This document shows, in pieces, positions 3,554-52,278 of a DNA stretch of 64,000 nt (its first letter is position 1; every line of letters starts with the position of its first letter). The notes beneath the pieces were generated by a model that was given only the letters and a program-made list of their open reading frames with translations, was not told the DNA's origin and ran no database searches. The position numbers and the translations under genes were made by a program. Source of the stretch: Planctomycetota bacterium. GTDB taxonomy: Bacteria; Planctomycetota; Planctomycetia; Pirellulales; Pirellulaceae. The DNA lies in contig JAPLNI010000057.1 of assembly GCA_026692865.1 (NCBI GenBank), forward strand, positions 351,773-415,772, given 5' to 3'.

Positions 3554-5767
3554 TTATCTAGCCAGCAAGAATCGTGAAAGGATTCGATCATAGAGTTGAC
3601 TGACAATGGAACGCGGTTTCGTTTCGATCTTGACGGAACCTAACCCAAACGCTTTAGCTTCGTCGTTCAAACGGTCCATCTCAATTGCAACATTGAAAGT
3701 TGTTTCCTCAGGAAGCGATTCTTCAGCCGACGGTTTGTACGAATTAAAAAGACTATCTCCAACCAGAGATTCCGGGGTTCGCAAAATCGATTCTGCAGAG
3801 ATCGACTTTACTGATCCCTCAAAGGTCTTACCAGGATGTCGATCTATTCGAATCCATGCTCGGTCACCAGGTGACACATTCTGTAAGGCCTCCTCCGTAA
3901 TCAAAGCGTTTACCAACCACTTATCGCCTTCACCAATCCACCCAAGTAGCTCACTTCGCTCAGCATGAGCGCGGTCCAATACTTTTGCTTGCAGATCGAT
4001 TCGCGGGAACTTTGATTTGGCTGTAAACTCGCGTTGGCGTAAAGGGTTGTACGGGTCAAGAAAAACTCCGGAACTATTAGTGATAATGCTCAAGCTATCG
4101 CGTTCTGATTTAAAGTCATGTAGTTTCTTCCGTAATCCGATCAGCCTTTGTTCTGTTTCTGCGATTTGCTGCGGCGAATCGGGGTCGTTTGTCAGTCGAT
4201 TCTCGAGCTGATTAATCCTGACGAGAGCGACCTGGATTTCACCTTCTGTTTTCAGTATTTCTCGATTCAAATCATACGATTCGAGTTGAAATACACATTC
4301 CCCGGGATACACTGCATGCCCATCTATGGCTGATTGAATGATTACTGCATCGCGTCTGGAAAAAAGTGGCAAGATATTGTTAGGCTCAACATAGCCTCGC
4401 GCGATAATAGACGTTGGAATCGGTAGGAACATAGCCGCACAAACCGCGCCTATAACCATTGAGGAGAAAACGCCGGATCTCTGCCAATTGACTCGACCTG
4501 TTTGAAGTAGGAGATGCATGTCTGCACGGAGCTTTCCAATGACAACAAACGATATTAACCCGAGTGTTCCGTAGAGAAGTGCGACTGCGACGCTTCGCAT
4601 TCCACTCTGCTCCAACCACTTGTAAGCGAGTAAGACAATTGCCGTAAGAAGAAGACAACGGTAAACGAACGAGAGGATATGGTAGGTTACAAGCCAACGA
4701 GAATTTCTGGATCGCGACTCCACTGAACGTGTTTTGAATGGCGGGGTAATTGTGAAGAGCGAAATCCAACTAGCGGTCCAAGTCTTCCGGCTTTCATCGC
4801 CGAGATTTGGAATACCAATCCAATCCGACAAAATGTAGTAACCGTCGTAACGTAGTAATGGATTTGCGTTGAGCAACAGTGTCATCAGACTACAGACGAT
4901 CATTACTTGGACAGCCATTCCTCTGAAGCCGATTGAATCACTTGATATCCAAACAAAGCATGCCAAAGTGGCAAGTATCAATTCAACATATATCCCTCCG
5001 GCGGCAATGATGATTCGCTGCCACCGATCTGGTAATTTCCATGAATCGGTAACATCACAGTAGAGCGAAGGCATACCAAATAAGAGAATGAAGCCGAATT
5101 CATCGCATTTCCCGCCAAATCGAACGCAAGCCATTCCATGTCCCAGCTCATGAAGTAATTTGATAGAAAATAATAAACCCAAAGTTATCCATAAGCGATC
5201 GCCATGTAGATTGCTATTGAATTTAGTCGCATCCTGAAGAAGGGAGCTCCAATTCAAGGTTGCAATTGCTAACGCGAATACTGCCAAAAAGGAAACAATG
5301 TAAAGAGTTGTTAGACGAAAAAGTATTTTCCCCAGTGGAGCCATTACTTGAAGCAACGCAGTTGGATTCAGAATGGGAAGCCGAAATGCGAGTATGGATC
5401 CTAGCAATTGCAAAGCATACCTCACCGAAACGCTTGAAGGTGATCCTGAACTTTCTCGATGATCTGTTGTCGATGAGGTTGTTGGGAGCAATAGAGAATT
5501 TTGATTCAGTCGCGTCACCAGCTGAACAACACTTTCGCGTGTCAGAACTCCGTTTGCGACGGCGAACCTTTCTCGCTCGAGTATTGATTCGATAGTCGCG
5601 TTTCCATTTAAGTTGGACGCGATCCGTCGTTCCATCTCGCTGACAAAGTAGAATTCCTGCTGAATTGGATCGTTGGCGACCCAATGTGGGTGATCACTGT
5701 GCGGATAGAATACCCATTGGAGGTCGGTTCTTAATCGAAACGGAATACTTGTAGCGACCACGGTCAT
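3554..5767 (-). CDS. PqqD-like / M50 zinc metalloprotease / HlyD fusion membrane protein
   Basis: 737 residues. Residues 1-90 resemble a PqqD-type winged helix (WVxNDPxxQEFYFVSEMERRIASNLNG). A multi-pass membrane region follows, with HELGH at 206-210 and NPLLRYDGYY at about 302-311: the zinc-binding and third motifs of the M50/site-2 protease family. From about residue 455 the chain changes to a HlyD-type periplasmic adaptor: a lipoyl-like half motif (ARGYVEPNN...GHAVYPGECVFQLES), a coiled coil at about 500-570 and a beta-barrel segment (VSPGDRAWIRIDRHPGKTFEG). The start ATG overlaps the stop of the upstream HlyD gene (ATGA), so the two are probably translationally coupled. The protein likely sits in the inner membrane and reaches into the periplasm. 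Whether the protease site is active is unknown; the zinc residues are present. Confidence 0.85.
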   Translation of the reverse strand: MTVVATSIPFRLRTDLQWVFYPHSDHPHWVANDPIQQEFYFVSEMERRIASNLNGNATIESILERERFAVANGVLTRESVVQLVTRLNQNSLLLPTTSSTTDHRESSGSPSSVSVRYALQLLGSILAFRLPILNPTALLQVMAPLGKILFRLTTLYIVSFLAVFALAIATLNWSSLLQDATKFNSNLHGDRLWITLGLLFSIKLLHELGHGMACVRFGGKCDEFGFILLFGMPSLYCDVTDSWKLPDRWQRIIIAAGGIYVELILATLACFVWISSDSIGFRGMAVQVMIVCSLMTLLLNANPLLRYDGYYILSDWIGIPNLGDESRKTWTASWISLFTITPPFKTRSVESRSRNSRWLVTYHILSFVYRCLLLTAIVLLAYKWLEQSGMRSVAVALLYGTLGLISFVVIGKLRADMHLLLQTGRVNWQRSGVFSSMVIGAVCAAMFLPIPTSIIARGYVEPNNILPLFSRRDAVIIQSAIDGHAVYPGECVFQLESYDLNREILKTEGEIQVALVRINQLENRLTNDPDSPQQIAETEQRLIGLRKKLHDFKSERDSLSIITNSSGVFLDPYNPLRQREFTAKSKFPRIDLQAKVLDRAHAERSELLGWIGEGDKWLVNALITEEALQNVSPGDRAWIRIDRHPGKTFEGSVKSISAESILRTPESLVGDSLFNSYKPSAEESLPEETTFNVAIEMDRLNDEAKAFGLGSVKIETKPRSIVSQLYDRILSRFLLAR

Positions 5768-6873
5768 TTATCACCGCCCACGGTTGCCTTCACTGATAGC
5801 CCAGGGCGATATCGACTTTCAGCGTTGTCAATCTCGATAAATACTCGGACTTGGCTATTCACTGGGTTTGCAACGGGGCTTACAAACTTAACCTTGCCAG
5901 TCACTTCGTATACCGTTGTGCCTATACTAATTGAAACATTTGCGTTATTCCCAGCTAGTACTTTGTTTGAGGTAGAAGCATCGATAAAGCCTTCTACTCG
6001 CAACGGATTCATGGTCATGAGTTCAACAACGGTAGAGTTTGGGTCTACCCATTCGCCAGCTTGTTTCTCGACAGAAATAACCATGGCTGACAATGGTGAA
6101 AATATCGTATGGCGGCTAACGGCCTGTTCGGCTTGGCGTAATTCTGCTTCGGCTTGTTCGCTAGCGAGGATTGTAAGCCGCTGTTCTAGTTGAGCGCGTT
6201 CGATTTCGAGTTTCGATTTATCGACCATTAATCGCATGCGATCGACTTCGTTCGCTGGGTAGGTGTCTGCTGCTCGAGAGTTCGCATCAAGCGTTCGTTG
6301 TAGTTCCTTGGCTGCAACTTCAGCTCCCTTGATGGCAAGCTTCAGATCGACATCACGCGTGGTTTTTAGCTTGGCGGTATCCAAGGCAAGTTGCGCTTGC
6401 ACAACAACCAAAGCAGCTTCATCATCACGCACTTTTGCAAGTGGATTTTTTAGATCAACGATATCTCCTTCCCGGACTAAAACCTCACCCAGCACGCCTG
6501 CGACTCCAGCTGCGATCGAAACGGTGTCCAGCGATTTCAAGATTGAATTTTTGACCTCGATTCGTGTGCCTCGCGTCTCATTTGACACGACGCTGTTTGG
6601 TGGATCATCACCACTCGCTACTATTGGGAAAGCTATTGCCCAACAGATAATTCCAATGATATCAAATGACCTCCGATATCTTGTTAGTGGTTTGGGGCGG
6701 GCTGATAAAATGGGTGCTTTACCTGAGGCGTTAACCTCGGGTGCTATCCGGTAAATTGTGGCAAAATCGAAACCCATGGCTAGCGCCATTGGCTCAGGTT
6801 TTATCAGCCCAGGTTTGGGGGAATAGCTTCTTTGTACTACGCTGATGTTGTTATTTTTTTTTCGTATGAACAT
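5764..6873 (-). CDS. HlyD-family periplasmic adaptor (membrane fusion) protein
   Basis: 369 residues from the chosen ATG at 6873, which has AGGAGA five bases upstream and lies just after the stop of the preceding gene. An in-frame ATG at 6930 would overlap that gene by 49 bp and has no such ribosome site. A signal peptide or membrane anchor lies late, at about 70-92 (IIGIICWAIAFPIVASGDD). It is followed by a lipoyl half motif (VAGVLGEVLVREGDIVDLKNPLA), a coiled coil at about 155-225, the second half motif (IFSPLSAMVISVEKQAGEWV) and a beta-barrel ending in YRPGLSVKATVGG. The unusual first 60 residues include the product of an inserted palindromic element (residues about 22-59). Middle gene of the three-gene operon; role inferred as linking an inner-membrane component to TolC. 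Confidence 0.86.
   Translation of the reverse strand: MFIRKKNNNISVVQRSYSPKPGLIKPEPMALAMGFDFATIYRIAPEVNASGKAPILSARPKPLTRYRRSFDIIGIICWAIAFPIVASGDDPPNSVVSNETRGTRIEVKNSILKSLDTVSIAAGVAGVLGEVLVREGDIVDLKNPLAKVRDDEAALVVVQAQLALDTAKLKTTRDVDLKLAIKGAEVAAKELQRTLDANSRAADTYPANEVDRMRLMVDKSKLEIERAQLEQRLTILASEQAEAELRQAEQAVSRHTIFSPLSAMVISVEKQAGEWVDPNSTVVELMTMNPLRVEGFIDASTSNKVLAGNNANVSISIGTTVYEVTGKVKFVSPVANPVNSQVRVFIEIDNAESRYRPGLSVKATVGGDK
6699..6810. repeat. Palindromic element inserted in frame in the HlyD leader
   Basis: Ends carry GGGCTGATAAAA (6699-6710) and TTTTATCAGCCC (6799-6810), with a second inverted pair ACCTGAG (6721-6727) / CTCAGGT (6793-6799). On the minus strand the element is open and gives residues about 22-59 of the HlyD protein, including FDFATIYRIAPEVNASG. 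A related core of equal length occurs at 44317-44382 in a non-coding region and translates as FDFAAVFQIAPEASALS. This resembles the behaviour of Rickettsia palindromic elements; mobility is inference. Confidence 0.75.
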
Positions 6874-6881
6874 AAAGTCTC

Positions 6882-8807
6882 CTAGAACCAAAAGCGTCGA
6901 TGGATTGCGTCGATCATCGCTCGAGTCCAAATAAACCAGCGTGGACTACTGCCGCAAGGAAAAGAGACAATTGCAGTGGTACCAATGCGAGGCTCAGGGA
7001 TGGCTTCATCGAGCTGGACGTAGAAGTCAAGATGCTGACTCCCTTGGTAGCTATAAAGAGATGAACCGGAGCTTTCTAATGTTCCAGTCCATGTCTCTCG
7101 CGGCGTGGAAGGTAGCGCGAAAGTCACCTTCATTGGATTGGATTTTTCAAATGCCTTTACCATCGCGTTGGATACATATCCAGATTCCCAATCGGCAACA
7201 GGAACTTCAATTCGCCATTGTTCGCGATCAAGACCAACATTGGCGATACGAAATAGTGCATCACCTAATTTAACCGGACGGCTTTCAAGCTGACTTTCAA
7301 GGTCCCAGGCGATTACCGTTCCCGAAATTGGACTTCGAAGTTCCAGTCGTTGTTGTTCCTTAAGGATTAATTCTCGTTGAGTTAACAAGCTTTCATGTTT
7401 CTTCTCAAGCTCCTTGATCTCTCCTGCGATTTGGCCACCGAGCAAGATAGATTTCTCGTCGTTTGATTGGAGCTGATTAATGGTAATATTAAAGCCAGAT
7501 TTCATTTCCTCAACAAGTTCTATTTCGGCGTCAATTCGATTGAGTTCGATCTGCAGTGCCGGAGAATTGATACGAGCAATGATTTGATCCTGCAGTACTT
7601 GCTCGCCATCCTTCACGAAAATGGAATCGACATAACCATCTGCGGGGGCGAATAGAAATCGTTGCGTTTTAGGTTGAAGCGTTCCTACTCCTCGAATGCT
7701 TAGTTCCGAATTCGATAGGAAGTAAGCGAGAGCGACCATACCGAAGCAAAACCAAATGACTTGCTTGACACGTCCATTCCAAGTCTGTGACCGATTAAAC
7801 AATTTGCGGACTCTTGCTGGCACACGAGCTGCGCGATGATTATGATTCCATGCATCGGTAAGGCGGGGTACAACATCAGCAATAATCGACGCGGCGCTAT
7901 AGTATCGGTCTGAGTTGGCCCACTCGACAATAAGCAACTCTTGATTCGCAGGGAGATTCAATTTGGAATCATTCTCATCCGCTTCATCGGATGAACTAGA
8001 AAGGGGGATCGCGATAGCGGAGGCCATCTCATGTTGCTTCGCAAGATTGGCAATCGCTTCATTTGGGTTTGGCGAAATCATGATGGATTTCGCTGCTGCA
8101 AGTAATTCTTGAACAACGGGCGAGCTCGTATTGACTAGCGCTGCGTTGCTTATCGCAAGTACTGAAACATTCTGTTGAACCCGAGTACCGCTTCCGTTGT
8201 TGCTCCTCACCAGGGAGACTCGATCCGCGTCCAGCAACGACCGAACCCCGTTGACGAATGTCCTGGATGCTGCTGTATGATTCTCGCAAGTGACGATTTC
8301 GTTTGAGATTGCTCGCAGTGGACCGCGCAAGCTTTCCCAGCGCTGCGTTGGTTCATTCAATTGAAACGAGTTCGCGATTTCGCAAAAGGCACTCAATACT
8401 TCGGCGACGCCAGCTTCTGCCGCTACGGGGATTGTTGCTGGTAATCGAATAATGATTCCGCCAGAGGTCCAGCCTATCGATCTTAAGCTGATACCAATCC
8501 ATGCACCACTGAGATCTCTCTGACTGATCTGAACGGGAAGCACCTGCGAGTGCTTACTGAGTTCGTTCGAAAGCCACCCACAACAATCAAGCGGGGATTC
8601 CTCGCCCTCGAATGCTAGGACATGCCACTTAGATTCTGACGATGCGTGAACGACCCACGAAATGGAACTTCCAACTACATGGTTTAGTCGACGAAGTAGC
8701 TCAGAATAGAATTTGGAAGGTTGAATATCGAGTTTGGAAAAGCGATCGAGCTCATTTAAAAGCTTATCCACTTGGGCAATCTCGCTAGGGCTACTTATGT
8801 TATCCAT
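6882..8807 (-). CDS. GAF-domain HlyD-type periplasmic adaptor
   Basis: 641 residues, first gene of the operon. Residues 1-340 have no signal peptide and look cytoplasmic. About 165-320 reads as a GAF-like sensor (AASRTFVNGVRSLLDADRVSLVRS ... ASAIAIPLSS ... ADVVPRLTDAW). One transmembrane segment lies at about 350-366 (QVIWFCFGMVALAYFLS). The rest is a HlyD adaptor: FAPADGYVDSIFVKDGEQVLQDQ, coiled coil at about 420-475, second lipoyl half LRSPISGTVIAWDLES, and a C-terminal beta-barrel. This topology puts a small-molecule or redox sensor in the cytoplasm and the adaptor in the periplasm in one chain. It ends 9 bp before the next gene and is divergent from the TolC gene with about 200 bp between them. 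Confidence 0.84.
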   Translation of the reverse strand: MDNISSPSEIAQVDKLLNELDRFSKLDIQPSKFYSELLRRLNHVVGSSISWVVHASSESKWHVLAFEGEESPLDCCGWLSNELSKHSQVLPVQISQRDLSGAWIGISLRSIGWTSGGIIIRLPATIPVAAEAGVAEVLSAFCEIANSFQLNEPTQRWESLRGPLRAISNEIVTCENHTAASRTFVNGVRSLLDADRVSLVRSNNGSGTRVQQNVSVLAISNAALVNTSSPVVQELLAAAKSIMISPNPNEAIANLAKQHEMASAIAIPLSSSSDEADENDSKLNLPANQELLIVEWANSDRYYSAASIIADVVPRLTDAWNHNHRAARVPARVRKLFNRSQTWNGRVKQVIWFCFGMVALAYFLSNSELSIRGVGTLQPKTQRFLFAPADGYVDSIFVKDGEQVLQDQIIARINSPALQIELNRIDAEIELVEEMKSGFNITINQLQSNDEKSILLGGQIAGEIKELEKKHESLLTQRELILKEQQRLELRSPISGTVIAWDLESQLESRPVKLGDALFRIANVGLDREQWRIEVPVADWESGYVSNAMVKAFEKSNPMKVTFALPSTPRETWTGTLESSGSSLYSYQGSQHLDFYVQLDEAIPEPRIGTTAIVSFPCGSSPRWFIWTRAMIDAIHRRFWF

Positions 8808-44306: not shown

Positions 44307-44415
44307 TTGGACAATGCACTAGCCTCGGGTGCTATCTGGAATACCGCAGCAAAGTCAAATCGAATGACAATTGCCGTCGGCAAAAATTCCCGAGGCGTGT
44401 GGATACTTAGTCCAA
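44307..44415. repeat. Palindromic element related to the one inside the HlyD gene
   Basis: Inverted pairs TTGGAC (44307-44312) / GTCCAA (44410-44415) and GCCTCGGG (44322-44329) / CCCGAGGC (44389-44396). The core 44317-44382 aligns without gaps to 6729-6794 (about two thirds identical). Its minus-strand peptide FDFAAVFQIAPEASAL matches FDFATIYRIAPEVNAS from the HlyD leader. Confidence 0.7.
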
Positions 44416-52091: not shown

Positions 52092-52228
52092 TAAATCAGC
52101 CCGAGGCGCTAGCAAGCGGGGCACAATAGTCTGGATTTTGAGCCGCCGACGTTAGCCGCATCGTTGGACGTTGCAGTGCAAGTGGGAAGGTTGTCGTTTG
52201 AACACGGCTAACGCAAGAGGCTCAAAAT
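52092..52228. repeat. Palindromic element upstream of the LamG-like gene
   Basis: Inverted arms at 52135-52158 and 52205-52228 (20 of 24 positions pair; outer ATTTTGAGCC and inner CGTTAGCCG). It is preceded by AAATCAGCCCGAGGCGCTAG at 52093-52112, which shares TCAGCCC and CCCGAGGC with the elements at 6699 and 44307. Non-coding. Confidence 0.65.
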
Positions 52229-52278
52229 GCCACTCGTTTGAACGATAGCTGAAGACATTGCCGCTTCAAACATCGATT

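Follow-up and report, generated by a model that had tools for sequence, protein, structure and literature searches.

A palindromic, probably transposable element lies in frame in unrelated protein-coding genes of a planctomycete genome

Introduction

How does a palindrome come to lie inside a protein-coding gene and leave that gene open for translation? The question is raised by a HlyD-family gene in the stretch of planctomycete DNA analysed here (64,000 nucleotides, henceforth the window). A sequence-only reading of this stretch had noticed a palindromic element in the gene's coding sequence, regarded it as selfish DNA that is tolerated in protein, and compared it to palindromes of Rickettsia; Rickettsia and Wolbachia are the best-known carriers of palindromes in coding sequence. 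It proposed two checks, namely to align HlyD orthologues with and without the insert and to search the genome for further copies inside and outside genes.

Results

The window copy and its gene

The sequence-only reading had described 12-bp terminal inverted repeats and an inner inverted pair, and both are present (Table 1), the inner pair being 9 nt long and 89% complementary (6718-6726 with 6747-6755). The family's common inner arms show more clearly in an alignment of copies than in the window copy alone, which falls 6 bp short of the 120-bp consensus of that alignment. The estimate of about 38 added residues holds for the element itself (114 bp, or 38 codons) but misses a 9-bp direct repeat that had gone unreported; with it, the net insert in HlyD is 123 bp, or 41 codons. 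On the minus strand the HlyD reading frame runs across the element without a stop and the insert precedes a hydrophobic segment of the protein.

Table 1. Features of the window that bear on the element (positions in the window)
Feature	Position	Strand	Remarks
Palindromic element, 114 bp, in frame in HlyD gene	6698..6811	-	covariance model 117.8 bits, E 2.9e-29 in window
Terminal inverted repeat, one arm	6699..6710	+	12 nt, 100% complementary to 6799-6810
Terminal inverted repeat, other arm	6799..6810	+	pairs with 6699-6710
9-bp target-site duplication GGTTTGGGG, first copy	6689..6697	+	9/9; on the minus strand CCCCAAACC
9-bp target-site duplication GGTTTGGGG, second copy	6812..6820	+	9/9 against first copy
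HlyD-family gene, 369 aa from ATG 6873, with 41-residue insert	5764..6873	-	HlyD_D23, HlyD_3
Decayed partial copy of the element family	44315..44382	-	outside long ORFs; covariance-model E 0.037

The relative proposed at 44317-44382 is real, with a local score of 47 against the consensus where the best of 20 shuffled 32-kb sequences reaches 30, but it is a decayed partial copy; against the window copy itself its local score is only 30. A weak model match at 52127-52250 (E 0.08) looks like another class of palindrome, with CGTTAGCC...GGCTAACG.

Empty sites in orthologues

In the same-genus genome G001 the element is absent from HlyD: the orthologue has 328 aa against 369, a difference of exactly 41 residues (123 bp), and it shares the end of the upstream gene and a matching start ATG. 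The insert is therefore not common to all orthologues, the one examined being without it, as the first of the proposed checks had anticipated. Where exactly the insert joins the protein is uncertain because the aligner places a 45-residue gap at the insert and a 4-residue gap in the orthologue. Across aligned codons dN is 0.125 and dS 1.21, so the gene is under constraint.

One might object that the HlyD element merely lengthens an untranslated leader, or that translation starts inside it. The element has in-frame ATG codons (MALAMG), and the short stretch upstream of it scores 2.8 for coding, which places HlyD among the 11 of 43 in-gene copies (see below) whose upstream side is short or weakly coding. 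However, the start is likely to be ATG 6873, which lies directly after the upstream gene, follows AGGAG (by eye) and matches the orthologue's start in position; the residues ahead of the insert align with the beginning of the orthologue (MFIRKK/MFVPNE, RSYSPK/RSYGPK), and insertions internal to genes, such as those in TilS and AcrB, would be left unexplained. We therefore regard this objection as unlikely to hold.

Two further genes tell a similar story. The G001 orthologue of a carboxyltransferase (L083, target duplication 9/9) is without exactly 43 residues at the element. TilS (L080) finds a match in 24 of 25 genomes including its own, which has one match. In 16 of the 23 other matching genomes the alignment comes in two pieces, ending at query residue 82-96 and resuming at 145-156, while for the remaining seven the second piece alone is reported; in G001 the two pieces are adjacent (351 versus 405 aa). 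An AlphaFold model of TilS (mean pLDDT 76.5, pTM 0.71, 11 sequences) gives residues 98-152 a pLDDT below 50; they link a strand to a helix in a core that is for the most part modelled with confidence. With one TilS match in the genome, a core enzyme apparently works with a foreign loop of 40-50 residues.

A family of at least 150 matches

The second proposed check, a genome-wide search, likewise turned out as envisaged: the genome does hold further copies. BLASTN with the element gave at least 42 matches (40 of 178 first-look candidates scored). A covariance model built from 24 copies (23 of the first 30 loci plus the window copy) gave at least 150, a lower bound because 150 of 2127 first-look candidates were scored. 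We analysed 123 of these 150: 26 were set aside for an E above 3.7e-10, and one (C21:7433) because it duplicates a match on the opposite strand. A pattern for the left arm, allowing up to 3 mismatches, has 121 matches in the genome, its reversed control none. On plasmids, the element had no match.

The consensus is 120 bp long with ends TGGGCTGATGAAA and TTTTCATCACCCCA, its terminal inverted repeats being TGGGCTGATGAAA / TTTCATCACCCCA. Inside lie the arms CTGAGCCGATGGCGCTAGCCACGGGT and ACCCGAGGCTAGCGCCTACGGCTCAG, which form imperfect inverted pairs around a loop that varies among groups of copies. The terminal-repeat pattern has 23 exact matches; those around C19 and C26 belong to larger sequences whose ends are similar, in which we noticed no transposase. 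These (C19:29711-29959 and C26:41786-42244) start with GGGCTRTTAAAAATT and end with TTTTCATCAGGCCA, and are perhaps another element. Three longer relatives of about 100 bp from arm to arm (L116 at C38:23885, L094 at C27:152695 and L127 at C50:104439) carry ...GACGCGCGGCGATTGA...GGGGGGAACCCGGAGCTAGCG..., the form that flanks a Y1 transposase gene described below.

Insertion duplicates nine base pairs

The 9-mers on either side of a copy match at six or more of nine positions in 31 of 123 copies (12 of the 43 in genes and 19 of the 80 others), where 2.6 are expected (mean of 1000 random re-pairings of flanks; maximum 9). Mean flank identity is 0.44 at a spacing of 9 versus 0.21-0.28 at spacings 6-8 and 10-13, and the signal is similar when other element boundaries are used. 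Flanks match poorly in the rest of the family, at three or fewer positions in 57 of 123 copies and at none in 9 of 123: many copies are old or without simple structure.

These 9-bp target duplications identify the copies as MITE-type insertions, and the family has the further hallmarks of MITEs, being short, dispersed, without a transposase gene and bounded by terminal inverted repeats. We consider it very probable that the family is a non-autonomous transposable palindrome (MITE) that makes a 9-bp duplication and of which in-frame insertions survive, contributing a tolerated peptide that drifts. An intact insertion adds 120 + 9 = 129 bp, that is 3 x 43 bp or 43 codons, so that the frame of the host gene is not shifted.

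Copies inside genes read in one register

A copy was counted as in-gene if its read-through ORF extends 30 nt or more beyond it in both directions and reaches a summed codon score of 20 or higher; by this rule 43 of 123 copies lie in 41 ORFs, all of them, by eye, in one register (EPMALATG...PEASAYGSG). The motif EPM, EPS or EPI occurs in 41 of the 43, with EPMALATG exact in 27, and the remaining two (L065, L143) share the register by eye. Orientation is plus in 42 of 43; in the exception (L116, C38:22874) the near-palindrome is read as its mirror image. Flank scores exceed 3 on both sides in 32 of the 43, the others being those with a short or weak upstream side. The consensus is free of stops in one register of six, where it encodes a peptide of about 40 residues.

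Judged by Pfam scans of 38 of the 41 host ORFs (6 of the 38 without a family), the host proteins are unrelated to one another. The element lies within a Pfam domain in AcrB, a DUF1549/DUF1553 protein, an AMP-binding enzyme, an amidohydrolase and an inositol monophosphatase; it splits a domain into two stretches in TilS and, by position, in the carboxyltransferase; and it sits between domains in HrpB, an M24 aminopeptidase and a SpoU methylase. Reading frames such as these suggest that the peptide would be made as part of the host proteins, which seem to keep working.

In one 459-aa ORF (L123, C45:9423-9800) three copies follow head to tail at 129-bp steps, all in frame, the element having turned into a tandem-repeat segment of a protein. 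A second triple tandem array (L090, C26:202860-203235; steps of 125 and 135 bp) is outside an accepted ORF. Elsewhere a copy (L110, C31:82729) adjoins what by eye seems to be the C-terminal end of a LeuA-like gene, where it is read in a shifted frame.

Might the element be removed by RNA splicing or ribosome bypass, so that normal proteins result? The strand of 131 nt at the window copy is predicted to fold into a strong hairpin, beating 200 of 200 shuffles (z -3.97), and one insert sits in single-copy tilS. Yet the copies in genes contain no stop and preserve the frame of the host, neither of which removal would need, and no Rfam family reaches its gathering score in 5700-7700. Such removal strikes us as barely credible. 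As a separate matter, we discarded the idea that an RNA structure accounts for the palindrome: across 24 copies, compensatory changes are absent from all 15 predicted pairs, which means that it is not maintained as an RNA.

Tolerance, decay and register

Five in-gene insertions are common to the genome and to MAG H1_MAG_00040, which is probably the same species as G001. Within the element, dN (0.237) equals dS (0.239) across these five, while the rest of the host genes is constrained (dN 0.073, dS 0.739). The peptide is therefore tolerated rather than selected, in line with the proposal of a palindrome that stays open in one frame and is tolerated in protein. If instead the peptide had been co-opted as a useful protein segment and kept by selection, insertions shared by two genomes and a left-arm peptide that is exact in so many in-gene copies are what one might see; equal rates of synonymous and nonsynonymous change are not, nor is an element protein that diverges more than its host in proteins unrelated to one another. 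Co-option is, in our view, very unlikely.

The element's overall divergence in the five shared insertions is nonetheless below that of synonymous sites in the flanks, and it is uneven. Identity is 0.65 and 0.68 at the outer ends, 0.80 in the loop, 0.84 and 0.83 in the flanks, 0.88 in the right arm and 0.97 in the left arm, the last value being ascertained because the MAG loci were found by an exact left arm. That arms diverge less than outer ends is not predicted by simple neutral decay. Gene conversion or a DNA-binding role are options for the conserved arms.

Two properties that might be taken for adaptation to coding DNA do not show it. A stop-free frame is unremarkable because 83% of 2000 dinucleotide shuffles of the consensus also have at least one, and a length divisible by three has a chance of 1 in 3.

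Among copies whose arm-to-arm spacing deviates (39 of 123 not measurable), the deviation is a multiple of three in 10 of 10 in-gene copies and 4 of 11 others, a comparison that is partly circular because in-gene copies were picked by read-through. A count over consensus positions 8-112 gives multiples of three for 30 of the 43 copies in genes and for 30 of the 80 elsewhere. The 13 copies in genes that depart from it count against a perfect multiple-of-three rule; we suspect misplaced alignment ends.

When the element was excised in silico, 14 of the 80 other copies had coding-like flanks on both sides (11 plus, 3 minus), in a test that recognised only 31 of the 43 in-gene copies. By eye, several of the 14 resemble the ends of genes, extensions at the C-terminus or frameshifts that arose later, and L152 seems to be another in-frame insertion that falls under the acceptance threshold. 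Some are ambiguous, and we saw no clear wrong-register break by eye. A rough calculation of tolerance (one register in six; 80 other copies; coding fraction of the window 0.88; random insertion and equal survival assumed) gives about 98 expected in-gene copies versus the 43 seen.

Mobiliser and the Y1 transposase link

Neither in this genome nor in G001 did PF01609 (DDE_Tnp_1), PF13808 or PF00872 yield a mobilising transposase with matching ends. PF01609 has 6 matches in the former and 2 in the latter, and beside none of them do the ends occur as a pair in the right orientation (up to 3 mismatches, flanks of about 1.5 kb); PF13808 and PF00872 have no match in either.

Y1_Tnp matches number 5 in this genome and 2 in G001. 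One gene (L260, C24:48207), whose product is above the cut-off of Pfam Y1_Tnp and below that of NCBIfam transpos_IS200, has exact left arms on either side, 2 of the 3 being paired with a right arm of form GGAGCTAGCGCTCACGGCTCA. For a second (L261) the arms lie to one side at a distance of about 1 kb, and L256-L259 and L262 have no arms in their flanks at up to 6 mismatches. Of the genome's own five, then, one is arm-flanked, one has distant one-sided arms and three have none. As for the GTAG or CGTC tag at the foot of REP palindromes, the right arm read backwards has, by eye, GTAG before GCGCTAGC, and the left arm has GATG. The 16.7 kb around the arm-flanked Y1 gene (C24:42000-58657) contain seven left arms, all of them on the same strand.

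Inner arms that flank a Y1 (IS200-like) gene suggest a REP-like origin of the arms. They also invite an account in which the copies are REP/BIME moved by the Y1 (RAYT-like) transposase, with no DDE transposase involved, given that the arms form imperfect inverted pairs. What this account does not provide for are the 9-bp target duplications and the outer inverted ends, and it sits poorly with the three Y1_Tnp genes of this genome whose flanks are without arms; we judge it improbable. IS200-type transposition is not, to our knowledge, known to duplicate its target, and for this reason we take the 120-bp unit to be DDE-mobilised. A selfish element of two layers, in which DDE-type ends came to enclose the REP-like arms of a Y1 system, is conceivable, if on balance doubtful; its 3 x 43-bp unit would have been selected for life in protein genes (no frame shift, one stop-free register, a disordered peptide), and its arms would be constant as DNA even where they are coding.

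Distribution

At a model E of 1e-6 or below, the element is found in 6 of 60 genomes including its own, with at least 60 copies in the latter, 57 in G001, 10 in G027, 4 in G025 and 1 each in G014 and G029. Thirty stretches of named genome contigs carry the 25-base left arm without mismatch: 26 of MAG H1_MAG_00040, 3 of Neorhodopirellula pilleata Pla100 and 1 of an uncultured Planctomycetaceae MAG. Ten of 31 arm matches fall within ORFs that run on for more than 100 nt in either direction, all ten in H1_MAG_00040. All named records with arm matches are Planctomycetaceae or Neorhodopirellula, none Rickettsiales.

Discussion

The pattern that emerges can be accounted for by the MITE reading as follows. 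A DDE-type transposase acting in trans probably moved the element, as the 9-bp duplication suggests, and each insertion would duplicate 9 bp of target, an intact one adding 43 codons. Insertions in other registers would break the gene and were presumably lost. Those in the open register would survive where the protein accepts a loop, a step suggested by the surviving set and illustrated by the modelled TilS loop. Thereafter the peptide would drift without constraint at the protein level while the host gene stays constrained, as the five shared insertions indicate. The HlyD insertion itself, close to the N-terminus of the protein, would have occurred in this lineage after the split from the same-genus relative, to go by the empty site and the perfect duplication. 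The inner arms, which resemble the repeats flanking the Y1 gene, may be REP-derived.

Of the original idea, a selfish palindrome of the rickettsial kind, both proposed checks came out as predicted; what has to be revised is its nature, which is MITE-type with 9-bp duplications, and the weight of its open frame, which is unremarkable. Since duplications, register and empty sites are all readable, the insertion, tolerance and decay of mobile DNA in genes become measurable. A search of mainly open-access literature found no coding palindrome of planctomycetes, which agrees with the earlier claim that such an element had not been described for them.

How does the element compare with known systems? 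In-frame fusions are described, in the portion of the review PMC2229807 available, also for ERIC, YPAL, RU-3 and archaeal repeats, small repeats that like ours have an open frame fused to host ORFs; the present case differs in that a single genome has 43 copies inside genes, many of them lying in conserved domains. An excerpt of PMC3733652 reports REPs from Planctomycetes, and also REPs that lie within genes. With REP/BIME-RAYT systems our element shares inverted pairs of short palindromes and exact arms around one Y1_Tnp gene; it differs in its outer terminal repeats, 120-bp unit and 9-bp duplication.

The closest likeness is to the palindromic elements of Rickettsia and Wolbachia. Rickettsia palindromic elements (RPEs) are located in frame in genes, according to the excerpts of PMC10969869 and PMC3767692, and the available portion of PMC2229807 gives them 105-146 bp, 19 reading frames with an in-frame copy, and a '?' for target duplication. 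As far as these partial sources go, the rickettsial elements and ours are alike in size (roughly 105-146 bp) and in occurring both between genes and in frame in unrelated conserved genes, and the comparison drawn by the sequence-only reading is borne out by a palindrome of about 100-150 bp with 43 of 123 copies so placed. The two differ, by description, in host (a planctomycete here, Rickettsiales there), in the 9-bp duplication found here where PMC2229807 has its '?', and in the empty sites found here within a genus, whereas the excerpt of PMC3767692 has the insert at the same loci in all rickettsial orthologues aligned. On the descriptions compared, the planctomycete element thus appears to work like an RPE and to be set apart by its host.
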